Source: Bacillus sp. J37 (GTDB lineage Bacteria; Bacillota; Bacilli; Bacillales; Bacillaceae). Taken from it: 32,992 bases of DNA. The notes under the pieces were generated by a model. The model saw only the letters and a program-made list of their open reading frames with translations, made no database searches and was not told where the DNA came from. Both the position numbers and the translations under genes were made by a program. Positions within the stretch are counted from its first letter, which is position 1; every line of letters starts with the position of its first letter. Of the stretch, positions 4,721-23,869 are shown piece by piece. The stretch covers positions 1-32,992 of the forward strand of contig NZ_JAEK01000054.1 of assembly GCF_000518865.1 (NCBI RefSeq). Reading direction: 5' to 3'.

Positions 4721-4959
4721 TGACAATATTAACATTATCTTCGTTCAGTATTTTATTTGCTACTATTGTAGTTTTATTAATTCAGTTACATAAGAGGGAA
4801 GAAGCTAACAAACAGGAAAGACAAGATTTAATGGACAGATTGATGAGTAAGGATTTTGCTGAGTATAAGGAACAGACAGGTGAAATGTTAAAGTTTGAAC
4901 CGATTACTGTTAGTGAAGAAGATGAATATTATCGTGAGATTGAAGAGAGTAAAGTATAA
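4720..4959 (+). CDS. Small membrane-anchored protein
   Basis: A 79-residue protein with one N-terminal membrane helix (about residues 2-22), followed by a charged, probably coiled-coil tail rich in Glu, Lys and Arg. A GTG one codon earlier (4717) is possible. AAGGGTGAT upstream serves as ribosome binding site, and the start overlaps the stop of the small ORF before it. The topology suggests a bitopic membrane protein with a cytoplasmic tail. Function is unknown. Confidence 0.55.
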   Translation: MTILTLSSFSILFATIVVLLIQLHKREEANKQERQDLMDRLMSKDFAEYKEQTGEMLKFEPITVSEEDEYYREIEESKV

Positions 4960-4960
4960 A

Positions 4961-4981
4961 AGCACCTCAAAAAGAGATGCT
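4961..4981. terminator. Bidirectional terminator between convergent genes
   Basis: AGCACCTC (4961-4968) pairs with GAGATGCT (4974-4981) with one mismatch. It lies between the ends of a plus-strand and a minus-strand gene, with an A-rich flank on the left. Confidence 0.5.
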
Positions 4982-5648: not shown

Positions 5649-5707
5649 TTGAATATCCTTTCAGTTTTATATTAATTGTAACAAAATTTATTTAGGTGGT
5701 GGTAAAA

Positions 5708-6079
5708 ATGAGTGAGAATAAAGTAGGAAGACCATTAAAGTTTAAATCCGTTGAAGAAATGAAGAAAAAGATTGATGCATATTTTGCTGAATGTGATGAG
5801 AATGAAGATCCGTATACAATTACTGGATTAGCTTTAGCATTAGATACAACTAGACAAGGATTGCTTAATTATGAAGAACGAGATGAATATTATGACACGA
5901 TTAAAAAAGCTAAGACTAAATGTGAAAACTATGCAGAAAAGCACTTATTTAAAGGTAAAAATGGTGTTGCCGGTGCAATCTTTAACATGAAAAATAATTA
6001 TGGTTGGGTTGATCGTCAAGAAATTAAGCAAGAAGGTAGTATGACTTTAGAGGAATTTCTTAAAAACTCTAAAAAATAA
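5708..6079 (+). CDS. terS: Phage terminase small subunit (gp3-like)
   Basis: A 123-residue DNA-recognition subunit of the packaging motor. It starts with a GRPLKFKSVEEM segment typical of this family, then a helix-turn-helix region (YTITGLALALDTTRQGLLNY), a lysine-rich helix, and the K-NYGWVD stretch seen near the C-terminus of many small terminases. The ATG at 5708 is preceded by AGGTGG at 8 nt; a GTG four codons earlier is less likely. It precedes the large terminase, but a recombinase gene is wedged between them. Family assignment rests on characteristic sequence features and position. Confidence 0.85.
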   Translation: MSENKVGRPLKFKSVEEMKKKIDAYFAECDENEDPYTITGLALALDTTRQGLLNYEERDEYYDTIKKAKTKCENYAEKHLFKGKNGVAGAIFNMKNNYGWVDRQEIKQEGSMTLEEFLKNSKK

Positions 6080-6108
6080 TGAAAACTAAATAAAACTTTC
6101 ATTTTAAT

Positions 6109-6209
6109 GAATGTACGAAATTGTATATTTTAATACATTCAAAAAGTTGATTTTATTGGTTTTATTTGTTATTATCGTCTTAATATAATAAAAACGTACA
6201 TTCGATGTA
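6109..6209. repeat. TACATTC repeats before the recombinase
   Basis: GAATGTA (6109-6115) and TACATTC (6134-6140) form an inverted repeat with an 18-bp spacer. TACATTC recurs at 6197-6203, within a small palindrome TACAT-TCG-ATGTA (6197-6209). A TATAAT at 6184-6189 lies between. These could be binding sites of the recombinase encoded next, or operators of its promoter. Confidence 0.35.
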
Positions 6210-6238
6210 TGAAAATGTTATGGAATGGGGCGATAATA

Positions 6239-6793
6239 ATGACAAAAGAAAAGAATGTTCAACCTCTAAGAACTAGGGAAGAAATTGAGGACATGAAACA
6301 ATCTTTAAGGCGTTTTTGTAGTGAACGTGATCGTTTTCTATTTATCTTTGGTATTAATACTGGTTTAAGGGTATCAGATATCCTTCCTTTAAGAGTAATT
6401 GATGTTAAAGGTAAATCACATGTAGTTATAAAAGAAAAGAAAACAAGTAAATCTAAGCGTTTCTTTCTAAATGAAGGTTTAAGAAGTGAAATTGATACTT
6501 ATATAAGAGGTATGGATGACGAGGATTTACTATTCCTTAGTCGTAAAGGCGATAAGCCTATATCTACAACACAAGCGTACAGAGCACTTGTTAAAGCTGC
6601 TGAAATGATTGGTAGAGATGATATTGGAACACATACTATGCGTAAGACATTTGGTTATCATTATTATAGAAGAACTAAGGATATAGCGTTTTTACAGGAT
6701 ATATTTAATCATTCTGCTCCAAGTATAACTAAAAGGTATATAGGTATTACACAAGATGAGATTGACGAAACATTAAAAGGATTTACATTATAG
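6239..6793 (+). CDS. Tyrosine recombinase (phage integrase family), short form
   Basis: A 184-residue site-specific recombinase consisting almost only of the catalytic domain. Counting from the ATG at 6239, visible active-site residues are R44 (TGLRVSD), a Lys in EKKTSKSKRFF (about 68-71), H132 and R135 (HTMR), H158 (FNHSAPS) and the nucleophile Y167 (KRYIG). All are intact. GGGG at 6227-6230 supports this start over an in-frame ATG at 6209. The N-terminal core-binding domain of normal integrases is absent, as in other small phage recombinases and XerC/D-like resolvases. It is a separate unit between the terminase genes. It could resolve phage multimers or act as an integrase. Confidence 0.88.
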   Translation: MTKEKNVQPLRTREEIEDMKQSLRRFCSERDRFLFIFGINTGLRVSDILPLRVIDVKGKSHVVIKEKKTSKSKRFFLNEGLRSEIDTYIRGMDDEDLLFLSRKGDKPISTTQAYRALVKAAEMIGRDDIGTHTMRKTFGYHYYRRTKDIAFLQDIFNHSAPSITKRYIGITQDEIDETLKGFTL

Positions 6794-6820
6794 ACGGTCA
6801 TTAATATGGCGGTCTTTTTT
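6792..6820 (+). terminator. Intrinsic terminator after the recombinase
   Basis: AGAC and GTCAT pair with ATGGC and GTCT around a TAAT loop, with one G-G mismatch, followed by TTTTTT. Confidence 0.7.
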
Positions 6821-6848
6821 ATTTGTCTAGAAAGGTAGGTGAACACTC

Positions 6849-8528
6849 ATAGAACAAGCTCAAAAAGAACAATTAGCAACATTACTTAATGATAATAAGA
6901 AATACATACAATCTTTCCTTAAGATACGTACTAAGGAAGGGAAACTTGTAGACTTTAAGCTTAATTCATCTCAGATACGATTATTAAACAAGATTGAAGA
7001 GTTACAATCACAAGGTAAACCAGTAAGGATTATCATAGCAAAATCGAGACAAATGGGATTTTCAACCCTAACCGAATCACTAATATTCAAACGTACTGCA
7101 ACTACACAACTTACTAATTCAATGATTATTGCGCACACAGTCGAAGCATCGTCGAATCTATTTAACATGTCGAAGTTGTTCTATGATGAGTTACCAACTC
7201 CTTTAAGACCAATGAAGAAGAATTCAAATAGTAAAGAATTAGTGTTTGAAAATCCTTCACTTGATCCTGATGAGAAAAGGAAGAATCCTGGACTACGTTC
7301 TAAGATTAAGATTGAGAGTGCTAATAATGATGGTGCAGGGAGATCAAGTACTATACATAATCTTCATGTATCTGAGTTAGCTTTCTGGAAGAACCCTGAT
7401 GATGTAATGCTTGGTTTAATGCAAGCTGTACCTAATACTCCTAATACAATGGTAATCGTAGAAAGTACAAGTAATGGTGTAGGTGGAATGTTTTATAATA
7501 TGTGGCAGCAAGCAGAAAGAGGAGAGAATGATTTTATTCCAATGTTCTTTCCTTGGTTTGAGCACGCTGAATATTCTATGCCTACTCCAGAAGACTTTGT
7601 ACTTACAGATGAAGAGGAAGAACTAAAGAAACTTTATAACCTTACAACCGATCAATTAACTTGGAGAAGATGGGCTATCCGTAATAACTGTGGTGGTGAT
7701 CCTGAGCTTTTCAAACAGGAGTATCCATCTTATGCAGAAGAGAGCTTCCTATCGAGTGGCCGTCCTAGATTCTCTATTGGTGTATTAAAGAAATGGTTAA
7801 ATGAAGCTAAACAAGGTGACAAAGGTTATCTAGAAAAGAATCAACTTGTTACAGATGATAAGGGGTATATTGAGATATGGGAGTATCCTAAGCCTGATAC
7901 ACATTATGTAATTGGTGCAGACGTATCTGAGGGGCTTGAAAATCGTGATTATAGCTCTGCTTCTGTATGGGATGCTAATACTAAACAACAAGTAGCTAAA
8001 TGGCATGGTCATATTGATCCTGACTTGTTTGCTAATGAATTAGAGAAGTTGGGTAATTTCTACAATAAAGCATTGATTGCTGTAGAAAGTAACAATCATG
8101 GATTCACAACGTTAAATATCCTCAAGCGCTCCTATATTAATCTCTTCGAAATGGAAAAATACGATGAAGATAGAGATATTGTAACTAAGAAATTAGGTTG
8201 GCAAACAACTAAGAAGACTAAACCGTTAGTTATTGATAACTTGGCTTATCTAATTAGAGAAAAGCTTATTAAATCATACGATAAAACGTTTATTAATGAA
8301 TGTATGACGTATGTTAGAGAAGAGAATGGTTCAACTAATGCTCAGAGTGGTTGTCATGATGACACTGTAATGTCTTCAGCAATCGCTCTTTTTGTATTGG
8401 AAAATTATATTACTAATTATCTAGAACACTTTGAGACTAATGCAATGAGTAACTCTAAAAACGATGAGTATATACCATTTGCTCTCAGAGAAGGTGAAGA
8501 TATTAACTTATCCTGGCATGACTTGTAG
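6849..8528 (+). CDS. terL: Phage terminase large subunit
   Basis: This is the packaging motor ATPase and nuclease. The frame is open from just after a TGA at 6840 but has no ATG, GTG or TTG until an ATG at 7053, which lies inside the ATPase motif. AGGTAGGTG (6833-6841) stands 7 nt before an ATA at 6849, so initiation at ATA is proposed (559 residues). Numbered so, the Walker A region is AKSRQMGFST at 64-73. It lacks the usual GKS/T lysine and has K65 upstream, as in lambda gpA. A Walker B-like segment ends in SELAFW. Nuclease acidic residues are D358 (GADVSEG), E413 (AVESNNHG) and D504/D505 (CHDD). The identity is secure; only the start is uncertain. Confidence 0.93.
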   Translation: MEQAQKEQLATLLNDNKKYIQSFLKIRTKEGKLVDFKLNSSQIRLLNKIEELQSQGKPVRIIIAKSRQMGFSTLTESLIFKRTATTQLTNSMIIAHTVEASSNLFNMSKLFYDELPTPLRPMKKNSNSKELVFENPSLDPDEKRKNPGLRSKIKIESANNDGAGRSSTIHNLHVSELAFWKNPDDVMLGLMQAVPNTPNTMVIVESTSNGVGGMFYNMWQQAERGENDFIPMFFPWFEHAEYSMPTPEDFVLTDEEEELKKLYNLTTDQLTWRRWAIRNNCGGDPELFKQEYPSYAEESFLSSGRPRFSIGVLKKWLNEAKQGDKGYLEKNQLVTDDKGYIEIWEYPKPDTHYVIGADVSEGLENRDYSSASVWDANTKQQVAKWHGHIDPDLFANELEKLGNFYNKALIAVESNNHGFTTLNILKRSYINLFEMEKYDEDRDIVTKKLGWQTTKKTKPLVIDNLAYLIREKLIKSYDKTFINECMTYVREENGSTNAQSGCHDDTVMSSAIALFVLENYITNYLEHFETNAMSNSKNDEYIPFALREGEDINLSWHDL

Positions 8529-8539
8529 GAGGTGTGGAT

Positions 8540-10294
8540 TTGAAATTAAAGGATGAAGAATTATATAAGAAGATTGTCTCTCATTTTAACGAATCATTAA
8601 GTGCACAAAGTGAAATGCGTACTGAAATGAGAGAATACGATGATTTTTATTTAGCGAAACATTGGAATAAAGAAAGGGCAACATGGAGACCAGATCCTAT
8701 TGTCAATTACGTTTCGTATATCGTGGATCAGAAAGCTCCTCAATTAACGAATAATAGACCATCAGGTTTAATCTTACCAACATCTCAAGATGATGAAGAA
8801 GCTGCTAAGCTGTTTACACAAGTAACAGATGTTATTTCTGAGCGTGTTGACTTAGACGATAAGAATGATCAAGTTGTTAGAGCTGGTTTATTACTTAGTA
8901 CTGGATGGTATAAAGTGTATTGGGATAATTCATTGACTGGTGGAAGTCCTGTAAAGGGGAACATTTGGAAAGGTGACGTTGCTATTGATATTCCAGACCC
9001 TTCAAATATATTCACTGATCCTAATGCTGTTACTGTAGATGAATGTAGATACATAATTTATTGTGTTCCTAAATCTATACAATGGGTTGAACAAAAGTTT
9101 GATGTGAAAGTTGACCCTGATACTGCTTTAGAAACAGAAATATTTGACCGCCCTTCCACTAATCATGGTAAAGATAGAGTTTTGTTTTACGAGTATTGGC
9201 ATAAGGACAAAGAAGGTATTCATTGTACCTATGCAGCAGGTGGTCAAATACTTAAAGAAATCAAGAAAGTATACAAACATGGTAGATATCCATTTGTTCC
9301 ATTCGTTGCTAAGAAGAATCGTAAAAGTATATGGGGAATAAGTGAGATTAAGAATATCCTAAGTAATCAAAAGTTACTTAATAAATTAGTTGAATTACCT
9401 GTTACTCATGCAATGCTACATGCAAATCCAATTACATTAGTTGATCCTAAGAGTGGAATTGATATTTCTAAATGGCAGAACAAACCTGGACAATTATGGT
9501 ATGCAAAAGATCCTAAGAATTCTGTTGGTCAAGTTAAACCTCCAGAAATGCCTAGTGATGTATATAAACTTGCAGATAACCTAATTCAATACATAGAAAA
9601 AATGGGTGGAGTTTATGATTCTATGACAGGTTCAACACCAACAGGAATTACTGCTGCAACAGCTATCCAGTTGTTACAAGAACAAGGGTCAATTCCAATA
9701 AAGGGCATCATTAGAAATCTACATCAATCCCTAAAGGATGTTTATGAGCTAATGATTGAATTAGTTAAAGAGAATTATACTGAAACTCGTTTCATCAGAT
9801 TAATTGATGAAGATGGTACAGTTGAATTCAAGGAATTTAATGCTATTCAATATGCAGAAATTGATTTTGATGTGAAGGTGTCTGCCGGTGACTCAACTCC
9901 AACAAGTAAAGCCTATGTATCACAATTAGGAGCAGATTTATTCCAACAAGGTTTATTACTTGGTAGTGAATACGTTGAAATGCAAGAAGGTTTACCAAAT
10001 AAGGATCGAATTGTTGCTCGTTTACGTGAACAAGAAGAAATAATGAAACAACAATCTATGATGCAAGAACAACAGATGATAAATCAACCTCCAATGTCTG
10101 AACCGTTTCCTATGAATGCTGATCCATCAATGCAACAACCTATGGATATACCAATTCAGGATTCATCTAATATCAAACAACAATTTGATGATATTTATGA
10201 AAATTCTCCTGAAGAAATTCAACAGCAATTAGATGTAATGTTGGAACAAGGGATGACAGAAGAGCAGATAGTAGCTCAATTAATGGGAATTTAG
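8540..10294 (+). CDS. Phage portal protein
   Basis: A 584-residue protein directly after the large terminase, the usual position for the dodecameric portal through which DNA enters and leaves the head. The N-terminus has RPDPIVNYVSYIVDQKAPQLTNNRPS, a pattern of podovirus-type portals, and the middle has the helix-turn region around GVYDSMTGSTPTGITAATAIQ. The C-terminus is Gln/Met rich and ends in a helix (EEIQQQLDVMLEQGM). The TTG at 8540 has AGGAGG at 7 nt; a GTG at 8534 would be only 1 nt away, so the TTG is preferred. Portal identity is from sequence pattern and position. Confidence 0.88.
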   Translation: MKLKDEELYKKIVSHFNESLSAQSEMRTEMREYDDFYLAKHWNKERATWRPDPIVNYVSYIVDQKAPQLTNNRPSGLILPTSQDDEEAAKLFTQVTDVISERVDLDDKNDQVVRAGLLLSTGWYKVYWDNSLTGGSPVKGNIWKGDVAIDIPDPSNIFTDPNAVTVDECRYIIYCVPKSIQWVEQKFDVKVDPDTALETEIFDRPSTNHGKDRVLFYEYWHKDKEGIHCTYAAGGQILKEIKKVYKHGRYPFVPFVAKKNRKSIWGISEIKNILSNQKLLNKLVELPVTHAMLHANPITLVDPKSGIDISKWQNKPGQLWYAKDPKNSVGQVKPPEMPSDVYKLADNLIQYIEKMGGVYDSMTGSTPTGITAATAIQLLQEQGSIPIKGIIRNLHQSLKDVYELMIELVKENYTETRFIRLIDEDGTVEFKEFNAIQYAEIDFDVKVSAGDSTPTSKAYVSQLGADLFQQGLLLGSEYVEMQEGLPNKDRIVARLREQEEIMKQQSMMQEQQMINQPPMSEPFPMNADPSMQQPMDIPIQDSSNIKQQFDDIYENSPEEIQQQLDVMLEQGMTEEQIVAQLMGI

Positions 10295-10380
10295 ATAAAA
10301 AGATATGGTACTATTTACCGATCTAAATTATAATTCAAAAGAAGAATGGATTATTTTGTATTTAGTTCGGGGGACTTAAA

Positions 10381-10872
10381 GTGGAAATATTATCTTTAGC
10401 TTTACCATTGATGGCGCTTATTCTTTTAATTTATGTAATAACTGAACAAAGACATTTAAAACGTATTAGACAGCTAGAAGAACGTTTAAGTCAAGCTGGA
10501 ATGAATGAAATCGACATAATGAAGGGTGTTGAATTTGAGCATTATTTAGCAGTGATCTTTAAAAAGCTCGGATACAACGTTAAAAGAACTCCTGCCTCTA
10601 ATGATTTTGGTGCGGATCTTATATTAGAAGGAAAAGAAAGAATTGTAATTCAAGCAAAAAGGTATAAAAGTAAAGTTGGTATTAAAGCTGTACAAGAAAT
10701 TAATTCCGCAAGAGATTACTATAAAGCGCAACATGCTTGGGTTATTACTAATAATTACTTTACATCTTCAGCGTATAAATTAGCAGAATCAACCAATATA
10801 GTATTGATTGATCGAAATAAATTGGCTGATTTAATTTTAAATGTTAATGATACTGCAAAAACAGGAAATTAA
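10381..10872 (+). CDS. Membrane-anchored Mrr-like restriction endonuclease
   Basis: A 163-residue protein with one N-terminal membrane helix (about residues 3-21), a short coiled-coil linker, then an Mrr/DUF2034-type PD-(D/E)xK nuclease domain. Active-site candidates are E51 or E53 (GVEFEHYL), D79 (NDFGADL) and Q91-A-K93 (VIQAKRY), the QxK variant of the motif; GIKAVQEI and AWVITN are also typical. The GTG start has GGGGGA upstream. It interrupts the portal-scaffold gene order and is closed by a strong terminator. This suggests a moron with its own control; a TATAAT lies at 10329-10334. Such domains act in modification-dependent restriction, so exclusion of competing DNA is a reasonable inference. 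Confidence 0.82.
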   Translation: MEILSLALPLMALILLIYVITEQRHLKRIRQLEERLSQAGMNEIDIMKGVEFEHYLAVIFKKLGYNVKRTPASNDFGADLILEGKERIVIQAKRYKSKVGIKAVQEINSARDYYKAQHAWVITNNYFTSSAYKLAESTNIVLIDRNKLADLILNVNDTAKTGN

Positions 10873-10899
10873 ACAATTGAAAATCAAATAATTATTTTG

Positions 10900-10929
10900 G
10901 GCTTAGGATGAGACTTCCTAGGCCTTTTT
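10900..10929 (+). terminator. Intrinsic terminator after the Mrr-like gene
   Basis: GGCTTAGGA (10900-10908) pairs with TCCTAGGCC (10916-10924), followed by TTTTT. Confidence 0.87.
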
Positions 10930-10941
10930 GCATAAAAAAAA

Positions 10942-10961
10942 TTCGACCAACCATAGTCGAA
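10942..10961. repeat. Inverted repeat before the scaffold gene
   Basis: TTCGAC and GTCGAA form a perfect 6-bp dyad with an 8-base loop, ending at the ribosome binding site AAGGGG of the scaffold gene. It could be an operator, an RNA hairpin or a processing site that protects the capsid mRNA. Confidence 0.4.
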
Positions 10962-10971
10962 AGGGGATTAA

Positions 10972-11757
10972 ATGATGGAAGAACAAATGAGCAACCATAC
11001 TCATGAAGAAATTATTGAAACACCAGATACACACCAAGAAACAGAACAAATAGAAACACAACCGGAAGTTGAGACTCCCCAACCAGAAGGAGACTTTATA
11101 CCGGTAAAGTACAACAAAGAGGAACGCAGAATTTCTCGTGATGAAGCACCGGATTTGATTCAAAAGGGACTTTATTATGATGAAAAAGTTAAAGGTCAGT
11201 ACGAATCACAAGCTCAGTATCTTGATCGTTTAGCTAAAATGAGTGGATACCAGACCACTGAAGAGTTATTTAATGCGATTGAGGAAGCTGAGAAGGAACA
11301 ACAAATTCAACAAAATGCTTCTAAATTAGGTATTGATGAGGAGGCTTACAGACAACACTATCAACCTATTAATGATGAATTGTCTCAAGTAAAATCTCAA
11401 TTGGAATCAATGCAACAAATTGAAAAACAAAGAGAAGCAGAAGCTGAATTGAATGAAGTACGTAATAAATTTTCAGATTTTGATACTTACCAAGATAAAG
11501 TTTTTGAGTTGGCTATCGATAAAGGATACTCACTTGAAGACGCTTATAAGCTGTCTACTTACGAAGATAAAATGCATAACATCGCGCGACAAAAAGAACA
11601 AGAAGTGTTAGCTAAGGTTACGGGTAGGGATGAAAAGCAAGTACTTGCAAGTAATGATAAACCTTCTAGCACTAAGTTTGACCCAGTTAACATGAGTTTA
11701 GATCAAATACAAGAGTTGTCCAGAAGAGTAAGGTCTGGAGAACGAATTACATTTTAG
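10972..11757 (+). CDS. Capsid scaffolding protein
   Basis: A 261-residue, very acidic and Gln/Glu-rich protein between portal and major capsid genes, where the scaffold is expected. The N-terminus is disordered (TPDTHQETEQIETQPE). The middle is coiled coil (about 100-165). The C-terminus is a short basic helix (LSRRVRSGERITF) of the kind that docks on the capsid protein in P22 and phi29 scaffolds. Two tandem ATGs follow AAAGGGG, and either may be used. No protease domain is visible, so the scaffold is probably released rather than self-cleaved. Assignment is by position and composition. Confidence 0.85.
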   Translation: MMEEQMSNHTHEEIIETPDTHQETEQIETQPEVETPQPEGDFIPVKYNKEERRISRDEAPDLIQKGLYYDEKVKGQYESQAQYLDRLAKMSGYQTTEELFNAIEEAEKEQQIQQNASKLGIDEEAYRQHYQPINDELSQVKSQLESMQQIEKQREAEAELNEVRNKFSDFDTYQDKVFELAIDKGYSLEDAYKLSTYEDKMHNIARQKEQEVLAKVTGRDEKQVLASNDKPSSTKFDPVNMSLDQIQELSRRVRSGERITF

Positions 11758-11772
11758 GAGATGGAATAAATT

Positions 11773-12708
11773 ATGACAAATACACAAGTAACTACACAAG
11801 CATCATTAAGCCCAGAAATGCAAACATACTACGATAAGAAATTATTAGCACGATTAGTTCCAAACTTTGTACACATGCAATTTGGACAAAAGAAACCTAT
11901 TCCGAAAAACGGTGGTAAGAAGATCCAATTCCGTAAATTTTCTAATCTAGCTGCTGCGACAACTCCACTAACTGAAGGAGTAACACCTGCTGGTAACAAT
12001 TTATCTGTGAGTGAAATCTTCGCTACTGTAGAACAATATGGTGATTACATTGAAGTATCAGATGTACTTGATATGACAGCTATTGACCCAATCTTAGATG
12101 AATCTACGGATGTATTAGGAGACCAAGCTTCAGATACATTAGATATTGTTTCTCGTGAGATTTTAGTAAGTGGAACAAATGTACAATACGCTAATGGTCG
12201 TGCATCTCGTGCAACTATTACTGCTACTGATGTCTTAACAGTTAATGAAGTTCGTAAAGCTGTTCGTACAATGAAACGTAACAAGGTTAAAGGTATCAAT
12301 GGTGGAGATTTTGTAATGATTGTTGAACCTGGTGCTACTTATGACTTACAATCTGATCCAAAATGGGAAGCTGCTGCACAATATGCTGGTTCTAAACAAA
12401 TCTTTAATGGTGAGATCGGACGTTTATATGGAGTTCGTTTTGTGGAAACCACAAATGCGAAAGTATTTGCTGGAGCAGGAGCAACGGGAACTGATGTTTA
12501 TGTTTCCTTAATGCTTGGTGAAAATGCATATGGAGTTGTAGATATTGCAGGAAGTGGCTCAGTTAAAAATATCATTAAACCGCACGGTAGCGCAGGTACT
12601 GCTGATGCATTAGATCAACGTGCAACTACTGGGTGGAAAGCATTATTTACTATTGCTCGTCTTGAAGAGTTAGCTGTCCTACGTATCGAACACGCTGTAT
12701 CTAACTAA
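11773..12708 (+). CDS. Major capsid protein, N4-gp56 family
   Basis: A 311-residue capsid shell protein. It matches the N4-gp56 family in layout: an N-terminal YYDKKLLARLVPNFVHMQFGQ segment, the GKKIQFRKFSNL strand, LTEGVTPAGN, a YGDYIEVSDVLD helix, and the later FVMIVEPGATYDL and YGVRFVETTNAK segments of an HK97-type fold. It starts 16 bp after the scaffold gene with GGAGATGG upstream and is followed by an intrinsic terminator. Its codons look the most biased of the window, as expected for the most abundant virion protein. The family is shared with N4-like podoviruses and various Firmicutes prophages. Confidence 0.92.
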   Translation: MTNTQVTTQASLSPEMQTYYDKKLLARLVPNFVHMQFGQKKPIPKNGGKKIQFRKFSNLAAATTPLTEGVTPAGNNLSVSEIFATVEQYGDYIEVSDVLDMTAIDPILDESTDVLGDQASDTLDIVSREILVSGTNVQYANGRASRATITATDVLTVNEVRKAVRTMKRNKVKGINGGDFVMIVEPGATYDLQSDPKWEAAAQYAGSKQIFNGEIGRLYGVRFVETTNAKVFAGAGATGTDVYVSLMLGENAYGVVDIAGSGSVKNIIKPHGSAGTADALDQRATTGWKALFTIARLEELAVLRIEHAVSN

Positions 12709-12721
12709 ATAAAAACTACTA

Positions 12722-12752
12722 AGGTATGGGGATTATCACCATACCTCTTTTT
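12722..12752 (+). terminator. Intrinsic terminator after the capsid gene
   Basis: AGGTATGG (12722-12729) pairs with CCATACCT (12739-12746), followed by CTTTTT. It probably lowers transcription of the tail genes relative to the capsid gene. Confidence 0.85.
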
Positions 12753-12772
12753 AATATGAGGAGGAATTAATA

Positions 12773-13048
12773 ATGGCTGTCAAAAAACAATTAACTGAAA
12801 ATGAAATGGATAAAGTAACAAAGGATACTGCATCGGTTCTTAAAGAACAAGAAGAAGTTACAGTAAAACTATATTTAAATCCTGAAGAGCGTAAGAAATT
12901 AGAAGCTGCTAAAGAATCAGGTAAGAATGTAAATTGGCCGTATCAAGTTGTAGGTATTAATGGTTATAACTATCAAATTCAACTAGGGAAAGAAGTAAAA
13001 GTACCTAAAACAGTAGCAGAAATTTTAGAACAAGCAGGGTTATATTAA
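12773..13048 (+). CDS. Small head-associated protein, unassigned
   Basis: A 91-residue protein between the major capsid and adaptor genes, with GAGGAGGAATTAATA before the ATG. The first 30 residues are charged and helical (Lys/Glu/Thr). The rest (VTVKLYLNPEERKKLEAAKESGKNVNWPYQVVGINGYNYQIQLGKEVKVPK) has the pattern of a small beta-rich domain. Position suggests a head decoration, head-completion or capsid-linked protein. No family is recognised. Confidence 0.7.
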   Translation: MAVKKQLTENEMDKVTKDTASVLKEQEEVTVKLYLNPEERKKLEAAKESGKNVNWPYQVVGINGYNYQIQLGKEVKVPKTVAEILEQAGLY

Positions 13049-13082
13049 TACTCTGCTTGTTCTATTTTAAGGGGTGAATCTA

Positions 13083-13466
13083 TTGGATTTACAAACAATT
13101 ATTTCTACAGTAAATACCCTAGCCGATGAAGAATTTCCACCAGAACAAATAACTACTTGGATTAACGATGCTATTGCGCGTATTAATGTCCAATTAAACG
13201 CAAACTTCCCATTTTTAAGTGTAACTAAACCTTCAGAAAGTCCTGTTTTTCCAGAAGTATACCATTATTTGTTACTTGTCCCTTTTGCTACTGCAAGGAT
13301 TAAACAAATGGATTCATCTCAATTTGAATATGTGGATTTATTTAGAGAATTTGAGGAGAACCTAGTTACTTTTCAAGCGAAATACAAAGTTCCAGAAGAA
13401 TACAGGACAGAAGATAATTTTACTGTTTACGAAATTCAAGTTGTAGACGGAATAACTACTTTGTGA
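13083..13466 (+). CDS. Head-tail adaptor protein
   Basis: A 127-residue helical protein. The pattern LADEEFPPEQITTWINDAIARINVQL, followed by a hydrophobic helix (HYLLLVPFATARI), is characteristic of podovirus adaptors (P22 gp4 / T7 gp11 position) that sit between portal and tail nozzle. AAGGGGTGAA stands 6 nt before the TTG at 13083; a GTG at 13074 lies inside that ribosome binding site and is less likely. It precedes the nozzle candidate by 16 bp. Assignment rests on residue pattern and position. Confidence 0.72.
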   Translation: MDLQTIISTVNTLADEEFPPEQITTWINDAIARINVQLNANFPFLSVTKPSESPVFPEVYHYLLLVPFATARIKQMDSSQFEYVDLFREFEENLVTFQAKYKVPEEYRTEDNFTVYEIQVVDGITTL

Positions 13467-13482
13467 GAGGTGCTGAGGCTAT

Positions 13483-15417: not shown

Positions 15418-15431
15418 AAGGAGGAACTAAT

Positions 15432-17591
15432 ATGGCGAGAATAGATCCAAGTGCGTTAAAGCAGTGGACAAATGGTGAAACAGTCACTGCTGAAGATTAT
15501 AAACAAGAAAGAGAAATACTACGGATTGCAAATAATAATAATCATGATATGCAAGTATTTCACGAAGAAGCAGAAGAATTACCGCACGTTAATAAATCTG
15601 TTAAAGAGAGACATCTTGATGATAATTCGGTAGGAAGTAGGATTATTGCTCCTTCTGCTGTAGGTGCGACACATATTGATCCAGATTTATTAAGACAAAA
15701 GAATGATATAGCAGTACAGGCTGAATTTGACCTGAGAGGAATAAATATCAAAAAGTTTGGAGCAAAAGTCGATGGTGTTACAGATGATACAGATGCTATT
15801 CGGGAAGCAATAACATATTGTGAAGTTCTTGGCCTTGAATTGTTAATTCCAGGTGTCAGTGTAATTACAGGAGAAATTGAGGTAAAGCACCCAATCACCA
15901 TTAACGGAATTGGATCTGGTTCGGGATATGCTGATAAAGCACTAACAGAGTATAGGCAAACCAGTGGGTTTTTAGTAAAAGGGACAGGACAAAAAAGGGT
16001 GAGAACAAGAGTTAATTATCGTTCTAATGCCTCAGACCCACAAGACATCCCATTATCAGCTGCATTAAATATACAAGCTGAAAATGTTACGTTACGAAAT
16101 TTTACTATATTCTTAGACTTTGATAAAACAGACATTTCACCAGTCAACTATGGATCAAATTGGGATATAGGAATCTTTTTAGGTTGTCGTGTACATAATT
16201 CGATCAATAATGTTCATGTATTAGGGTATTGGAGAGAAGCGAGTATATACTTTGATGTAACAAGAAGTAGTTATACCCCGGAATTCAATGATTTAAACGG
16301 CAATCCATATTTTGAGGGCACAGTGAGAAATGGTGCTGACGGCCTTACTTTAGAAAAAATCTTTACACTTGGTGGTAAGTGGGGTCTTAAAATCCAAGGA
16401 GCAAAACCTAAAGCAGGACAATCTGGATACTCTGACCTTTATTACGATGAATTAACAGGAACAACGGTAACGGATAGACGAGGTAATTTCGGTGCTTCCG
16501 ATGTAACGGCAGTAGCATGTTCTTTCTACGGTACAAATCACCATACGAAATATAGAAGAGACGATTCTACAGGCAACTATTTAACCGACAATGGTGGCGG
16601 TTCTGTAAGTATTGATGGTTTGGCTGGTAATGCGTCAGGTGCTTTACAAGGAATGCGATTTATTTCTTGTCGTTTTTCAACATGGGAACCATTTAGAATC
16701 AAATTAGATCGAGTTAATAGACCTGTATTTATAGGTTGCCATAGTGAAGGCGGTAGTGGCGCATTAAAGACTAATGGGTCACCAGTATTATTTGATGATA
16801 CTGATTACTATGGGCCGATTAGCACAACATCTAACACCAAAAATTTAGTTTTGGTGGCTTTTAATGCGACTCTTCGTCCTGTTTTTATCGGATCTTCGGA
16901 TTATACTAATACAGCAAATGCTGGTTCAGATGTAAACTCATTTGCGAAAGGTTTTTCATCTGGTGGAGATTCAAGTATTAATGGGGGACTATTTGTTAAT
17001 GGTTCCTTAATTAAAACATCAGGAGAGATGGATATTAGAGGAGCAGCAGGAAATGGTGTTCGCTTCCGTAATGGATCATCAAGTGTTGCACTAATAAATT
17101 CTGATTATGCTACATTCTATCCATCTATTTCCGTGAGACCAAGTTCAGACAATTCGGTTTCAGTAGGCCAAGCTTCAAATAGGTTCTCTACTGTCTTTGC
17201 AGGTACTGGAACTATCAACACCTCAGATAGAAATTCAAAACAACAGATATTAAAAATAGATAACAAAGTATTAGATGCATGGTCAGAAGTGAATTATTTT
17301 CAATTTAAATTCAATGATGCTGTTGAAGAAAAGGGAGATGAAGCACGTACACACTTTGGAATCATTGCTCAAGAAATTGAGGAAGCATTTACTAGACATG
17401 GTTTAAACGCATTTAATTATGGCCTTCTTTGTTATGATGAGTGGGAAGATCAATACGAAGAGATTGATGGAAATAAAGTTTTAGTTACTCCTAAAGGTTC
17501 GAGATATAGTATCAGACCCGATGAATGTTTAATGTTAGAATCTGCATTAATCCGAAGAGAGTTAGCGAAAATAATGACGTTGATTAGTTAA
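15432..17591 (+). CDS. Tailspike with pectate-lyase-like beta-helix and S74 chaperone
   Basis: A 719-residue receptor-binding tailspike. Residues 1-100 are a particle-attachment region (LKQWTNGETVTAEDYKQ...). FDLRGINIKKFGAKVDGVTDDTDAIREAI starts a Pectate_lyase_3-type right-handed beta-helix that continues to about residue 560. The C-terminus is a Peptidase_S74 intramolecular chaperone. It has the self-cleavage Ser-Lys pair in TSDRNSKQQI, then GIIAQEIEEAF and the ALIRRELAKI helix. After trimerisation the chaperone is expected to cut itself off. The beta-helix suggests capsule or wall-polysaccharide binding or degradation; catalytic residues for a given sugar cannot be named. GAAGGAGG precedes the ATG and a terminator overlaps the stop. 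Confidence 0.9.
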   Translation: MARIDPSALKQWTNGETVTAEDYKQEREILRIANNNNHDMQVFHEEAEELPHVNKSVKERHLDDNSVGSRIIAPSAVGATHIDPDLLRQKNDIAVQAEFDLRGINIKKFGAKVDGVTDDTDAIREAITYCEVLGLELLIPGVSVITGEIEVKHPITINGIGSGSGYADKALTEYRQTSGFLVKGTGQKRVRTRVNYRSNASDPQDIPLSAALNIQAENVTLRNFTIFLDFDKTDISPVNYGSNWDIGIFLGCRVHNSINNVHVLGYWREASIYFDVTRSSYTPEFNDLNGNPYFEGTVRNGADGLTLEKIFTLGGKWGLKIQGAKPKAGQSGYSDLYYDELTGTTVTDRRGNFGASDVTAVACSFYGTNHHTKYRRDDSTGNYLTDNGGGSVSIDGLAGNASGALQGMRFISCRFSTWEPFRIKLDRVNRPVFIGCHSEGGSGALKTNGSPVLFDDTDYYGPISTTSNTKNLVLVAFNATLRPVFIGSSDYTNTANAGSDVNSFAKGFSSGGDSSINGGLFVNGSLIKTSGEMDIRGAAGNGVRFRNGSSSVALINSDYATFYPSISVRPSSDNSVSVGQASNRFSTVFAGTGTINTSDRNSKQQILKIDNKVLDAWSEVNYFQFKFNDAVEEKGDEARTHFGIIAQEIEEAFTRHGLNAFNYGLLCYDEWEDQYEEIDGNKVLVTPKGSRYSIRPDECLMLESALIRRELAKIMTLIS

Positions 17592-17619
17592 GCCATCCTA
17601 AAGGACGGCTTTTTATTTT
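17590..17619 (+). terminator. Intrinsic terminator after the tailspike gene
   Basis: AAGCC and TCC pair with GGA and GGCTT around TAAA with one mismatch, followed by TTTTTATTTTT. Confidence 0.8.
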
Positions 17620-17637
17620 TGGAAAGGGGGTTTTTAA

Positions 17638-18930
17638 ATGGCTACACCATACACCTCAAAACAAGTTGATCAAGATATGAGATTTATCAACCAATATTCT
17701 AAATTAGGTAACAAAGCTAATGATAAACAGAATGATCATTATAGTTACCTAAAATCAAAATATGGTAACAACACCTTAAAATCAGGTGTATTTAGACCAG
17801 AGGATTTATCATCATCAAATCAAAAGCAATATGTTTCACAAAATCCATATGGGAATTTTGCCAAGAATCAACAATCTAGCTATTTCAATACTGTTGATAA
17901 TGCTATTAAAAATAATCAAGCAGTATCTGATAAACAGATGAATTATTATAACGAATATGCGAAAAAATGGAATCTAACTCCACAAAGTCAACGACCTATG
18001 AGTTTTGAAGAAGCAACACAACAAGCATCTAAGCAGGTTGATCCATTGTATAAGCAAGCTCTAATGGATATTCAATCACAACAGTTTAATAACACTAGAG
18101 AAGCTCAACAAAATGCACAATCAATGGGATTAGAAAACTCCGGTTTAGCTCAAGATCAGCAAATGAGAATAGCGATGGCTTCGCAAGCTCAACGAGGTCA
18201 ATTAGGTTCTGAACGTGCTACTCAAATTGCTGAAATGGCTCAAGGATTGGTTCAATCTGATACTGATCGTAAAGATAGGCTGAATCAACAATCACTCGAA
18301 GAACAATGGAGACAAAAACAATTTGATTATCAACAGCAACGAGATAAAGTATCTGACAGTCAATGGAGTAAGGATTATGAGTGGAGACAGTATGTATTTA
18401 ATAATATGTCTGCTTCTGAAAAAGCACAATTAGAATGGGCTAAATCTCAATATGGTGAAGATACAGCTTGGAGAATGTTTGAGCTTAAGTATAATGGAGA
18501 ACTTCAAAAATCAATGAATGATTCTCAAATAGAGTTTTATAAATCGGGTTTTAATAATGTTCAGGAAGGGGGCGGTTATAGCAATTATAAGAAGACTTCA
18601 ACCCAGGCTTCAAAAAGCTCATCTTATAAAACTTATCAAACTCACTTAAATCAAGCTATAAAAATGGGGGTTCCTGCTTCTTGGGCTGCTCCTCTTACAG
18701 AGTTAGTTGGTCGTGAATCTTCATGGAATTCTTCAGCTAAAAATCCAAAAAGTACAGCTCATGGATATGGACAATTTCTCAATTCAACTCGTAGAAACTA
18801 TGAAAAGAAAACTGGCCTAGATTATAGTAATCCAGTTCACCAGTTAGTGATGATGGCTGAATATGTTAAAGATCGATATGGTACACCTGAAAAAGCACTA
18901 GCTTTCTGGGATAAAAATAATTGGTATTAG
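17638..18930 (+). CDS. Internal virion protein with lytic transglycosylase domain
   Basis: A 430-residue protein. The first 330 residues are Gln/Ser/Asn rich and helical with no membrane segment. The last 100 are a lysozyme-like SLT domain: catalytic Glu about residue 360 in VGRESSWN, then AHGYGQFLNSTRRNYEKKTG and a final helix-rich part ending FWDKNNWY. Virion lytic transglycosylases open the cell wall locally during DNA entry, as in T7 gp16. It lies between the tailspike and the giant ejection-type protein, consistent with a set of ejected inner-core proteins. GGAAAGGGGG precedes the ATG. The long Gln-rich part is probably the core-forming segment. Confidence 0.84.
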   Translation: MATPYTSKQVDQDMRFINQYSKLGNKANDKQNDHYSYLKSKYGNNTLKSGVFRPEDLSSSNQKQYVSQNPYGNFAKNQQSSYFNTVDNAIKNNQAVSDKQMNYYNEYAKKWNLTPQSQRPMSFEEATQQASKQVDPLYKQALMDIQSQQFNNTREAQQNAQSMGLENSGLAQDQQMRIAMASQAQRGQLGSERATQIAEMAQGLVQSDTDRKDRLNQQSLEEQWRQKQFDYQQQRDKVSDSQWSKDYEWRQYVFNNMSASEKAQLEWAKSQYGEDTAWRMFELKYNGELQKSMNDSQIEFYKSGFNNVQEGGGYSNYKKTSTQASKSSSYKTYQTHLNQAIKMGVPASWAAPLTELVGRESSWNSSAKNPKSTAHGYGQFLNSTRRNYEKKTGLDYSNPVHQLVMMAEYVKDRYGTPEKALAFWDKNNWY

Positions 18931-18944
18931 TTTGGTGGTGAAGT

Positions 18945-21900
18945 ATGTTTAATGAGTCAAAGTATAAAAAAATATTTGAACAAAGATATGGGGCTGGATC
19001 ATTTGATTCTAGCCTTTCTTCAGCTCGTTCAATAGGTCATTCTAAGGCTCAGGCAGAGTATGAAAAAGACCAGTTTGAATTACGAAAGAAAGCTTATGAA
19101 CAGTTACTTAAAGAACAACAAAAGGCTGAAGAAGCTCGAATTAAACGTGAATCAGAAAGTATGAATGACTATATAAAGCAGAATGAAAAAGCTAAGTCAC
19201 AAGGTCGTGGCGGTTCAATGCCTTCAAGAGAGCAACAAGAAAAAGAAGCTGACATTCAAGCCGAATATAAGCGAACAGGTAAGTTTCCTTCTGCAATTCA
19301 AAAAGACATTGACAACCTTCAATATGGTAATTGGCAAAAGCTTGGCGGACAAAAGGATGCAATTAAAAGTTTTCTAGATCAAAGCAACAATCAGAGATAC
19401 AGGGCTTCTTTACAGAGTTCAAGTAATACAGAAAATGTAAAAAAGAAAGATAATGATGATAGTTGGCTAGAAAATCTTAAAGGATTTATGAAAGGTGAAA
19501 AGGTTATTGAAGGTTTCTCCATTCGAGATAAAAAAGATGGAGATAGTGACACCACTATTAACAAAACAGGTAAGGTTAGAGAAGGGGAAAAAGCAACAGG
19601 TCTTGATCGTTTTATTAATCGTGCTGCTAATTCAACTACTCTTGGTGCCTATGAAGAAATTGCTAAGAAAACAAATGATGAAAAGACGCTTGATGCTTTT
19701 TATTCGGATCGTAAAGTTGGTCAAGGTGGAGCAACTGACTTTCTTGCAGATAGTTTGGGGTACTTGTTACCAGGTTTAGGTGCAGTCAAGGCTGTGAGAG
19801 GTACAAAACTAGGTGCTGATATGAGTAAGAAAGGCGCTCAAAAAGCAATACAACTTGGAAAAGAAGGTGCGGTAACTGGTGCTGGAATTGCTACAGGTGA
19901 AGTTGGTGTCCGTGAGGCTTTAAATGGAGAAAACACGAATGCTTTAGAAAACTTGAAGCATATTGGAATTGGTACTGCTGCAGGGGCTTTAGCTGATCCT
20001 GCTCTTTATGGGATTGGGAAAGGTATACAACCTCTAATAGGACGATTAGCAAAAGGAGATGTTCCTACATTCACAGGTAAACCTTCTGAAGAAACAGTTA
20101 GAAACTTAGCACCTAAGAGTGATTCTTTAAGACTTCAAACAAATGAGGTTAGGAATTCTAATGATTTTTCAGAACACCTTATTAAAAATATCTCACCAAA
20201 TACACAACAGTCTTCAAAAAATCAATTTGAAGCTATTTCACAAGGGAAAGAACCTACTCTAAAGAGAATTCCAGACATCCTTCTTGATAGTCAAAAACAG
20301 GCTGAAGGAAACGCAAATACGTTCAGAGCAAAGGTTGACCGAACACCGCAAAAAGAAGAAAACACTTTCTTTAGTACTTTACGCACACAATTTGTAGATG
20401 ATGTTGCTCCATTAGAAACTCTTGAGAAAAAAATAATTGGTAATGTAGCAAGTGCTGAGGATAGTTTATATAAACAGGCTAGACTTTATAAGGGAAGTCC
20501 CGCAAAAGCAGAACAACTTGTTAAAGAACAGTTATACCCTATTATTAAGGAAGTTCAGGACAAAGGATATAATCTTGAAGATCTAGGGGATTATGCAATT
20601 GCTGTTCATGCTAAGGATGTTAATGCAAAAGGGATTAACTCAGGCTTCACTAATGCTGAGGTAGAAGATGTAATCAATAAACTAGGGTCACCAGGTTTGG
20701 AAAATGCTCGTAAACAACTGATGAATGTAAATAATAATGTATTAGAAATGTTGTCTAATGGAGAGAAACCCGTACTTAGTGCTGATGCTGTTAAAGCAAT
20801 GAGAGAGAAATATCCTAATTACATGCCATTATTTCGTTCTTTTGATGATGAAAAAATTGAATTTGCAAATGGTTTAAGCAATGCTTTATCTGTTGCTAGT
20901 AGTCCAATTAAGAAGTTGAAAGGGTCAAGTCGGGATGTTGTTGATCCTATGGAAAGTGTAATTAAAAATATTTATAAAGCTACTAATGTTGTAGATCGTA
21001 ATAATGTTGCTTCTAAGTTAGAAAAGTTAGCAGATAAAGATATTGATGGTCACTTTATCAGAAAATTAGACGAAGGTGAAGACACAGGAAGAATTAACGT
21101 AATTAGTGCGATGGATAATGGTAAAAAGGTTAATTATGAAGTACCACCAGATGTATATAAAGCAATGAAGAATTTAGACAAGGAATCCTCGAACACCTTA
21201 ATTAAAATACTTGCTAAACCTGCTTCAACTTTACGTGCTGGAGCTACCTTAACACCCGAGTTTAGTATGCGTAACTTTTTACGTGATGTTCCTGCTGCAA
21301 CAATTGTATCTGAATCAGGTTTCAATCCATTTATCGATTTTCCAGTTGGTTTATGGCAGTCAATTTGGAAGGGTAGAACAATAAAAATAGGTGATAAAGA
21401 GTTCAAAACAAGTGGAGATCTTTATGAGCAATTTATTAAAGAAAATGGTGGATATGGCAACATTATGTCTATGGATAGAGATGCACATCAGCAAACATTA
21501 AAGAAGGCATTAACGGAAGCGAATACTCAATATATTGATGTATTAGATTCAAAATCTTATAAAGCGTTAATGAAAAAGTTTGCAAATCCAATGGATACTT
21601 TGAGAACTCTTGCCGACATTAGTGAAACAGGAACTAAAGTTGGAGAATTTAGAGCTGCGATGCGTAAAGGTGCTTCTCCTCAAGAGGCTGCATATAGAGC
21701 AAGAGATATCATGGATTTTGGAAGAGCAGGGGTTAGTATTCGTGAGGCGAATAAAGTTGTAGCCTTCTTAAATGCCAATATACAAGGTAAGAGTAAGCTT
21801 TGGAGAGCGTTTAGTCAGAATCCAGGTAAAGTTTCTGGAAAGGCAATGGCAATGGTAACAATACCTACTATTGGTGCAATAGTTGCTCAAGAAATGTTTG

Positions 21901-22787
21901 CTAATGAACGTCAAAAAGAAGTTTTGGACGATGCTCCAACTTGGCTAAAGGATACTTTCTATTTAGTACCTATTCCAGGAACAAATCAAATTGCAAGAAT
22001 TCCGAAACCCTTCGATCTAGCATATCCATTTTCAAATTCATTAGAAAGAGCATTTGAATTTGTAGCGAAAAATGATAAAGAAACATTTGATGGATTTATC
22101 AAAGATGGTTTCTCAGCTATGGCAGTACCAACAATGCTCACTGGTTTAGCTCCAATGGTAGAAGGAATGGCCAATTATTCATTCTTTAGACAAGGGTCTA
22201 TCATTCCTCAAAGGGAGCAAAACATGGAGTTTCCTGATCAACATGATATTAATACATCAGAAACAGCTAAACTGCTTGGTAAAGGTATTAATCAATTAAC
22301 AGGTGGAGAAGGTAGTTTCAAAAACTTCGGATCACCTAGAATAGTAGACAATACAATTCAAGGTTTTACAGGTGGACTAGGGACATATGGAACCAGTATA
22401 ATTGATATGTTTATTAATGGAGTATCAGATAAGGAACAGCCAGAAAAACCTGCAAAGAGTATTGATCAGCAACCATTAGCAAAGGCTTTCTTAGTTAATC
22501 AATCTGGCTCAAGTAAATCATTAGATAAATTCTATGATTTGAGAGACAAGTTATCTAAGGCTAGAGGATCTGCAAAACAGAATGACAAAGAATTCGCAAA
22601 TGAAGTACAATATAAGAAATCCAATGATTTAAATAAAGGAATTAGTGATCTTAATAAAGAAATACGTACAGTACAAAACTCACCAACCCTTTCTTCACAA
22701 GAAAAGAAAGAACAGTTGGATAAATTAATCAGGGAGAGAAATAAAGCAGCTAATGAGGCTGTTAATATCCTTAAAAAAATGGAGTGA
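18945..22787 (+). CDS. Giant internal virion (ejection) protein, LPD38-like
   Basis: A 1280-residue protein, the largest in the window. The N-terminus is charged coiled coil (about 40-120). A Gly/Ala-rich stretch (about 265-360: DFLADSLGYLLPGLGAVKAV, GAVTGAGIATGEVG) could insert in a membrane. The region about 760-980 resembles the LPD38 domain of large polyvalent proteins (PEFSMRNFLRDVP, then DIMDFGRAGVSIREANKV and AFLNANIQGKSKL), followed by hydrophobic AMVTIPTIGAIVAQEMF. The C-terminus is Lys/Glu-rich helical. It is placed like the large ejected proteins of short-tailed phages, which form a trans-envelope channel or carry effectors. The LPD38 label is from motif memory; an ejected role is inferred. 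Confidence 0.75.
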   Translation: MFNESKYKKIFEQRYGAGSFDSSLSSARSIGHSKAQAEYEKDQFELRKKAYEQLLKEQQKAEEARIKRESESMNDYIKQNEKAKSQGRGGSMPSREQQEKEADIQAEYKRTGKFPSAIQKDIDNLQYGNWQKLGGQKDAIKSFLDQSNNQRYRASLQSSSNTENVKKKDNDDSWLENLKGFMKGEKVIEGFSIRDKKDGDSDTTINKTGKVREGEKATGLDRFINRAANSTTLGAYEEIAKKTNDEKTLDAFYSDRKVGQGGATDFLADSLGYLLPGLGAVKAVRGTKLGADMSKKGAQKAIQLGKEGAVTGAGIATGEVGVREALNGENTNALENLKHIGIGTAAGALADPALYGIGKGIQPLIGRLAKGDVPTFTGKPSEETVRNLAPKSDSLRLQTNEVRNSNDFSEHLIKNISPNTQQSSKNQFEAISQGKEPTLKRIPDILLDSQKQAEGNANTFRAKVDRTPQKEENTFFSTLRTQFVDDVAPLETLEKKIIGNVASAEDSLYKQARLYKGSPAKAEQLVKEQLYPIIKEVQDKGYNLEDLGDYAIAVHAKDVNAKGINSGFTNAEVEDVINKLGSPGLENARKQLMNVNNNVLEMLSNGEKPVLSADAVKAMREKYPNYMPLFRSFDDEKIEFANGLSNALSVASSPIKKLKGSSRDVVDPMESVIKNIYKATNVVDRNNVASKLEKLADKDIDGHFIRKLDEGEDTGRINVISAMDNGKKVNYEVPPDVYKAMKNLDKESSNTLIKILAKPASTLRAGATLTPEFSMRNFLRDVPAATIVSESGFNPFIDFPVGLWQSIWKGRTIKIGDKEFKTSGDLYEQFIKENGGYGNIMSMDRDAHQQTLKKALTEANTQYIDVLDSKSYKALMKKFANPMDTLRTLADISETGTKVGEFRAAMRKGASPQEAAYRARDIMDFGRAGVSIREANKVVAFLNANIQGKSKLWRAFSQNPGKVSGKAMAMVTIPTIGAIVAQEMFANERQKEVLDDAPTWLKDTFYLVPIPGTNQIARIPKPFDLAYPFSNSLERAFEFVAKNDKETFDGFIKDGFSAMAVPTMLTGLAPMVEGMANYSFFRQGSIIPQREQNMEFPDQHDINTSETAKLLGKGINQLTGGEGSFKNFGSPRIVDNTIQGFTGGLGTYGTSIIDMFINGVSDKEQPEKPAKSIDQQPLAKAFLVNQSGSSKSLDKFYDLRDKLSKARGSAKQNDKEFANEVQYKKSNDLNKGISDLNKEIRTVQNSPTLSSQEKKEQLDKLIRERNKAANEAVNILKKME

Positions 22788-22791
22788 TGTA

Positions 22792-22977
22792 ATGGCTTGG
22801 TATCACTGGATTGCAGTTTATTTGATCATTATCGGAGCAACATTATTTACAATTATTCCAGAAAAACCTTTATGGCTATGGGGAGTAATTGCATTAATGT
22901 TTATCGTTGGTTTATTGTTAGGTGTACTTTTACCACATAAAGAAGATAAATATGCAAGAGTAAACAGGGAGGGCTAA
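22792..22977 (+). CDS. Small two-helix membrane protein
   Basis: A 61-residue protein with two hydrophobic helices (about 5-20 and 27-46) and a charged tail. The ATG at 22792 comes 4 bp after the stop of the giant protein, with GGAGTGA overlapping that stop; an in-frame ATG at 22753 lies inside the previous gene and is not used here. It closes the structural operon, with a terminator overlapping its stop. It might be a virion membrane factor or a lysis accessory. No family is recognised. Confidence 0.62.
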   Translation: MAWYHWIAVYLIIIGATLFTIIPEKPLWLWGVIALMFIVGLLLGVLLPHKEDKYARVNREG

Positions 22978-23767: not shown

Positions 23768-23801
23768 GAGTAAACTTTGAAGTAACAACTTTATCATTAT
23801 A

Positions 23802-23831: not shown

Positions 23832-23869
23832 TAATAATTGATTTTATTATGAATTAATGGGGGATTACT

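Follow-up and report, generated by a model that had tools for sequence, protein, structure and literature searches.

The 32,992-nucleotide contig NZ_JAEK01000054.1 of Bacillus sp. J37 (here called the window; contig C43 of the 5.34-Mb genome, with a matching IMG/VR record, UViG_2508501026_000001) raises the question of what kind of temperate phage joins a short-tailed particle to the genes found here, where its genome begins and ends, and how its late genes come to be transcribed. Our analysis points to an integrated, podovirus-type temperate prophage of about 39.5 kb (42.1 kb with an inserted IS21 element) and the gene content described below, a reading to which we give a probability of about 0.88. 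As judged from its sequence the prophage is apparently complete, and its known kin among Bacillus and Paenibacillus phages are distant. The window would hold its late part, comprising packaging, head, short tail, lysis and FtsK/replication-relaxation genes and a likely repressor switch, and the early left arm would lie on a second contig, C11. The one unexpected feature, a gene for a YonO-like polymerase, lies outside the window, on C11.

Prophage boundaries and integration site

Three features lie towards the ends of the phage DNA in the window.

1-2502, minus strand: IS21-family element, IstB at 37-801 and IstA at 804-2387 (matches to IstB_IS21 and transposase-type hidden Markov models)
2503-3050, plus strand: 3′ part of an HNH endonuclease gene split by the IS21 element at this junction (HNH_3, E = 9e-4, below the cut-off)
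32286-32377, plus strand: attR, a 92-bp direct repeat of C11:66830-66921 containing a tRNA-Val (GAC) gene

The IS21 element, 2502 bp long and placed by reading near the 5′ end of the phage HNH gene, is assembled in four copies whose IstA stretch is identical; the left flank is kept on C59 and C11 and the right flank on the window and C21. Two 5-bp target duplications pair these flanks, AAGCA for C11 and the window and GGAAG for C59 and C21, and the duplication common to C11 and the window places C11 to the left of the window. The two att copies match exactly over 92 bp, and each reads as tRNA-Val. In a congener, G005, the C11 side (4785 bp, 99.0% identity) and the window side (401 bp, 100%), each length including the 92-bp core, are contiguous through one copy of that core. 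By its sequence the G005 site is an empty attB, which independently confirms the join between C11 and the window. The element thus has the integrase, the att repeat and the empty site in a relative expected of an integrated temperate phage, in line with the original prediction, made from the letters of the window, that the phage is temperate. With the IS21 element the prophage is 42,094 bp long, and the excised genome without it would measure about 39.5 kb (39,500 bp), close to the 39.6-40.0 kb of the Bacillus phages Page, Pascal, and Palmer. Were the element instead a phage-plasmid, its FtsK and replication-relaxation proteins would keep a free circle; genes for both are present, and the Page genome is circularly permuted (PMC3990757). 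We reject this as highly improbable, since an att repeat in a tRNA gene bounds the element, its flanks are contiguous in G005, and the window contig has no exact terminal overlap.

Host DNA restarts at 32378 with a terminator-like hairpin (z = -4.8). This tRNA-Val hairpin, now at 32378-32432, appears to have been displaced from attL by integration, and its removal from attL (L121:4700-5054) means that transcription from the tRNA promoter could extend into the integrase gene. A search for a guessed tRNA-like pattern gave no match. A second repeated element begins at about 32686 (32686-32992), with 65 bp at 100% identity in nine other places in the genome; by eye it is the end of another IstB gene.

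Particle genes and relation to Pagevirus

That the region at 5708-22977 codes for a podovirus-type head and tail is confirmed by sequence matches and modelled folds. Its features and those that follow it are these:

5696-6079 (ATG at 5708), plus strand: terminase small subunit (GP3_package; PF16677, 80 bits; phrog_606)
6209-6793, plus strand: second tyrosine recombinase, 194 amino acids (aa), between the terminase subunits (PF00589, 85 bits; phrog_216)
7053-8528, plus strand: terminase large subunit (phrog_2, phrog_24361; 74% identical to G021)
8534-10294, plus strand: portal of P22/SU10 type (PF16510, 159 bits; PF23899, 97 bits)
10381-10872, plus strand: Mrr-type nuclease (PF04471, 116 bits)
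10972-11757, plus strand: putative scaffold, by its place in the gene order and its conservation in Page (gp5) and relatives
11773-12708, plus strand: major capsid protein, N4-gp56 family (TIGR04387, phrog_1357)
12773-13048, plus strand: small conserved protein 3′ of the capsid gene (homologues in relatives)
13074-13466, plus strand: likely head-tail adaptor (predicted fold; weak match)
13483-15417, plus strand: beta-propeller tail nozzle, 644 aa (AlphaFold model, pLDDT 71; 38% identical to an SV21 protein)
15432-17591, plus strand: tailspike with S74 chaperone domain (PF13884, PF12219; phrog_1171)
17638-18930, plus strand: virion protein with C-terminal transglycosylase-like domain (phrog_12661, NF052397; Page gp18 homologue)
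18945-22787, plus strand: giant ejection-type protein with LPD38 domain (PF18857, 106 bits; phrog_9854; C-terminal half of Page gp20 53% identical)
22753-22977, plus strand: holin/antiholin (phrog_14607; Page gp21 about 70% identical)
24382-24798, plus strand: holin, and 24798-25409, plus strand: M15 peptidase endolysin (PF05105 and PF13539 matches within 24382-25409)
27016-27228, minus strand: helix-turn-helix regulator adjoining the FtsK gene (HTH_3)
27775-28917, plus strand: FtsK/SpoIIIE-like translocase, and 28917-29723, plus strand: replication-relaxation protein (PF01580, PF13814, phrog_1358 and phrog_2190 matches within 27775-29723)
29929-30129, minus strand: cold-shock protein gene carried by the prophage in addition to the host copy on C96 (92.7% DNA identity between the two)

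The capsid protein matches TIGR04387 over residues 7-308 with 288.4 bits (NCBIfam cut-off 60), which places it in the N4-gp56 family. The predicted fold of the 644-aa nozzle resembles the tail nozzles of P22, SU10, and T7 in a structure comparison (the alignments took in 32 of 60 nozzle matches and 30 of 53 adaptor matches), and its gene directly follows that of the adaptor candidate, itself a weak match; genes and fold together suggest a podovirus morphotype. Aligned by sequence against the PDB, the nozzle found only 8jov (GP4 portal-tail), at 0.11, and a search among viral contigs found the window's own record alone. No tube, sheath, or tape-measure gene was found in the window, where stray tape-measure and baseplate PHROG matches occurred. 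With relatives imaged as podophages (Pony, PMC3853050; API480, in excerpts of PMC6937236), these results uphold the prediction of a short-tailed phage with an N4-gp56-type capsid.

The prediction had also pointed to the joining of such a particle to a lysis and FtsK/Replic_Relax region as the mark of a potentially under-described lineage. This combination is not new: it is already present in Page, Pascal, and Palmer, whose annotations run from holins through an M15-type endolysin and an FtsK gene to a replication initiation gene, and the arrangement of particle, lysis, FtsK, and replication genes is of the known Pagevirus kind. The Bacillus phage records matched by the portal, capsid, and giant protein are exclusively Pagevirus (13 records each), a group of Bacillus megaterium podophages (Page, Pony, Pascal, Palmer, and others) with genomes likewise of about 40 kb. 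Common to both is the order portal, scaffold candidate, capsid and, further on, transglycosylase-type protein, giant protein, holin/antiholin, holin, endolysin, FtsK, and replication gene. When 40 of the 50 Page proteins were compared, and a helix-turn-helix match inside the IS21 transposase was set aside, 10 matched in the window, largely in the same order, and none in the left arm. Identity to Page is 40% for the capsid, 23% for the portal, and 21% for both FtsK and nozzle, and the nozzle-like gene comes after the spike gene in Page but before it here. The Page replication protein gp27 had no match at 1e-4, so that the pairing of the replication genes is one of position and annotation.

The lineage is nevertheless distinct from Pagevirus at the level of sequence. 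The terminase subunits have no match in Page, Pascal, or Palmer at 1e-3 in a sequence-level comparison, and megablast of 5708-22977 against 50,697 phage records returned no match. In a midpoint-rooted capsid tree (87 rows; 3 of 84 capsid matches dropped by length) the window groups with L019, L006, and L020 (99/88), apart from Page, Pascal, Palmer, L014, L013, and L011 (100/100), and so does not belong to the clade that unites Page with Ectobacillus antri, Paenibacillus massiliensis, and Desulfosporosinus. Page SbcC, RecT, DnaC, sigma factor, single-stranded DNA-binding protein (SSB), and dUTPase have no match in the window or left arm; where Page has sigma-factor, RecT, and SSB genes in its early region, a helicase and a YonO homologue stand here instead. 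Unlike Pagevirus, the present phage is integrated in the chromosome; Page, Pascal, and Pony were announced as podophages, with electron microscopy (Page, PMC3990757; Pony, PMC3853050), and the Pascal announcement takes the repressors of that phage as a possible sign of a temperate lifestyle. The prophage adds an integrated genome with mapped boundaries to a podovirus group that is represented in Bacillus by soil isolates whose lifestyle is unsettled. The original interpretation is supported in part: a temperate Bacillales podovirus with this capsid family, API480, is already in print (excerpts of PMC6937236), yet the lineage stands apart from Pagevirus by megablast, capsid tree, and terminases.

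Kinship to other known phages is mosaic. The nearest head module found, in record UViG_2928344086 (G021; L006, L153, L154), is 74% identical in the terminase large subunit, 65% in the portal, and 64% in both capsid and giant protein, but only 23% in the nozzle (over the C-terminal half) and 27% in the transglycosylase-type protein, and that record has no PF05183 match. Genome G288 has the corresponding terminase large subunit, portal, and capsid at 66, 69, and 67%, but Page-type HNH, SSB, and dUTPase genes upstream, and the kinship of L019 and L020 to the window lies mainly in head genes. The best portal matches among phage records are the Paenibacillus larvae phages SV21 and API480 (26%). SV21, which encodes a DNA polymerase and a primase of its own, is closer in the nozzle (38%) than Page (21%) and 42% identical in the capsid; the giant protein has no match in it at 1e-3. 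The API480 capsid is 44% identical, and excerpts of its description (PMC6937236) give it as a podovirus by electron microscopy, reported temperate by experiment, in which no integrase was found. By published description there is also a likeness to the Clostridium clostridioforme LM41 prophages phi1 and phi4, predicted podoviruses of 40.8 and 41.7 kb; the parts of that 2024 report drawn on here (PMC11318856) state that the strain releases mainly podovirus-like particles and describe an 8-kb open reading frame similar to a large polyvalent protein domain, apparently in both. The best capsid match is a human-gut contig (50%). Of 398 genomes sampled from the class, 7 gave a match to the capsid alignment at E ≤ 0.001, and for 5 of these, J37 among them, the E value was below 1e-100; within the genus the capsid occurs in 1 of 21 genomes, that of J37 itself.

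Such rarity is one of three observations that would suit a decayed prophage, integrated and podovirus-type but now unable to make particles; the others are the IS21 insertion in the HNH gene and the extra cold-shock gene. We consider decay unlikely, because the genes for packaging, head, tail, lysis, integrase, helicase, and polymerase all remain unbroken open frames and the att copies are identical over 92 bp, and HNH genes are often dispensable.

Several accessory genes accompany those of the particle. The cold-shock gene was probably captured from the host genus, given its 92.7% identity to the host gene on C96, whose neighborhood is that of the corresponding gene in G005 C1. The Mrr-type nuclease stands alone between portal and scaffold candidate; among PADLOC models it comes closest to ZorD, PDC-S02, and type IV restriction enzymes, and it was the sole match when 10 proteins were submitted to PADLOC. 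DUF218 and YhcH/YjgK/YiaL (DUF386) genes lie at 23159-24319, between holin/antiholin and holin. A terminase small subunit-recombinase pair of like kind occurs in a siphovirus-type prophage record, L142 (17806-18939), which also bears the polymerase.

A YonO homologue in the left arm

Inside attL, C11 carries genes for a 354-aa tyrosine integrase (PF00589, 141 bits; gene start about 130 bp inside attL), two small open reading frames, a replication-initiation-like protein (phrog_1835), a DUF5659 protein, a DEAD-type helicase, and a 1114-aa protein. The last matches PF05183, an RNA-dependent RNA polymerase family, with 59.6 bits (cut-off 23.8), and YonO of phage SPbeta with an hhalign probability of 95.1 (E = 3.3e-8), DLDGD aligning to DNDGD, and a blastp E of 3e-6; D632, D634, and D636 of the DxDGD motif are invariant in all three aligned sequences, its own included. 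On this evidence the protein is a homologue of the single-chain RNA polymerase YonO, like it down to the DxDGD motif, and it probably functions as a polymerase. The two differ in length (839 aa in YonO, 1114 here) and in setting, SPbeta being a 134-kb phage with a tape-measure gene. Against the PDB the protein alone had no match by sequence, and a three-row alignment found only plant RDR2 (E = 0.92). PF05183 is the family of eukaryotic RNA-dependent RNA polymerases, which have a role in RNA silencing.

Full-length homologues occur in five IMG/VR records (32-47% identity), and a sixth matches partly; annotated phage records gave 11 matches, all below 28%, and when 80 genomes of the host family were searched, 6 of them, J37 among these, had a match to the RNA-dependent RNA polymerase family. 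L142/L150 and L141/L151 carry a tape measure, a phrog_64 portal, and a phrog_267 capsid, and L129/L152 a phrog_267 capsid, siphovirus-type genes by which these three are not of the present particle type; the phrog_1357 capsid is absent from all five records, which are possibly fragments. On L130 the genes for FtsK, DUF5659, helicase, and polymerase follow one another as they would on the circle of this phage. That contig, which also encodes a serine recombinase, holds at 5637-6719 what reads as an AimR-type arbitrium receptor candidate.

We rejected the polymerase as a trait of the whole lineage, PF05183 being found in 1 of 16 relative records (G024), where the match is at C1:314-316 kb and the phage locus (L013) in the first 20 kb of its contig. 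The polymerase family alignment matches 2 of 10 podovirus-type genomes or records, the present one and G024, the latter by short matches to a distant 877-aa protein. Among the other podovirus-type records searched, some of which are fragments, none showed the pairing of helicase and YonO-like polymerase, and among the open-licence titles and abstracts surveyed we noticed no report of a podovirus with a YonO-like polymerase.

What the polymerase does for the phage can be read in two ways. According to excerpts of PMC5467207, SPbeta YonO is essential and transcribes the late genes as one operon, from a promoter still to be determined; late transcription is thus the simplest role for its homologue. 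The protein might instead be cargo, acting for example against host defence or on RNA, with the host polymerase serving the late genes. Its presence in siphovirus-type prophages, its lack in the nine other podovirus-type genomes and records save for the short G024 matches, and a promoter motif search without convincing result would all fit cargo. The homology to YonO and the role of YonO in SPbeta (excerpts of PMC5467207) argue the other way, as do the conserved DxDGD motif, the full-length homologues at 32-47% identity, and the fact that Page's annotated sigma factor has no match in the window or left arm. We regard cargo as a serious possibility at somewhat less than even odds. The prophage offers a small phage for studying YonO-type transcription without the 134 kb of SPbeta, and comparison with near relatives lacking the polymerase would show a change of transcription strategy while the particle is kept.

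A possible switch coupled to excision

How might such a polymerase be kept silent in the lysogen? Two features near attR bear on this.

30854-31243, strand not assigned: likely lysogeny switch (sequence and consensus scan)
31244-32167, plus strand: three small early-type genes before the att site (open frames only)

The switch comprises an XRE-type repressor candidate at 30854-31087 (minus strand), assigned by reading and with no NCBIfam match, and divergent promoter-like sites at 31134-31162 (plus) and 31126-31098 (minus); the plus-strand site has 11 of 12 consensus bases and overlaps a palindrome at 31143-31156. No terminator was found between the genes at 31244-32167 and attR, nor in the first 2 kb of the left arm (a scan of L121:4700-7000).

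Integration took place at tRNA-Val (GAC) through the 92-bp core. In the lysogen the XRE repressor may hold down the divergent early promoter near 31134. From the gene order, the att site would lie inside the early operon: on the circle, the genes at 31244-32167 would run into the integrase, replication, helicase, and polymerase genes, so that integration would part these from the early promoter and excision would reunite them. By analogy with SPbeta YonO, the phage polymerase might then transcribe the late genes. Folds and relatives suggest that the P22-type portal packages DNA into the N4-gp56-family capsid, closed by adaptor and nozzle, and that adsorption and DNA entry are the task of the tailspike, the transglycosylase-type protein, and the giant LPD38 protein. 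We are less sure of the repressor switch, split operon, and late-gene polymerase than of the other steps. Taken as a whole, the proposal is of a 40-kb temperate podovirus in which a Pagevirus-type early region with its sigma factor has been replaced by a YonO-type polymerase and helicase module common to siphovirus prophages, and in which, with the att site within the early operon, the act of excision turns on the replication and polymerase genes; we offer it tentatively, the odds being against its holding in full.

Some observations weigh against an integrated phage of this particle type and gene content. The particle is known here from genes and predicted folds; the HNH gene is interrupted; and the polymerase and integrase are encoded on a second contig, whose connection to the window is inferred. 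In other phages the polymerase accompanies siphovirus genes, so it may belong to the early module as cargo. Promoter-like sites at 30820-32400 are not in excess (10 against 9.1 in shuffles), and no convincing late-promoter motif emerged from 35 intergenic stretches (5511 nt; k-mers with mismatches, five block-shuffles). In that scan the best 18-base word occurred in 5 stretches against 4-6 in shuffles, no excess, and the best 14-base word, in 6 stretches against 3, 5, 4, 4, and 5, was rejected as the T-rich tail of repeated terminators. Sigma-70-like sites at 2503-7100 showed no excess either (20 against 26.9 in shuffles), and an operator word derived from the switch itself occurs window-wide at the chance count (5 against 5.2). 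At 3640-4600 three similar terminator-like hairpins (GACAC...GTGTC) come after small genes; one of these units holds only a 14-codon open reading frame near 3839.

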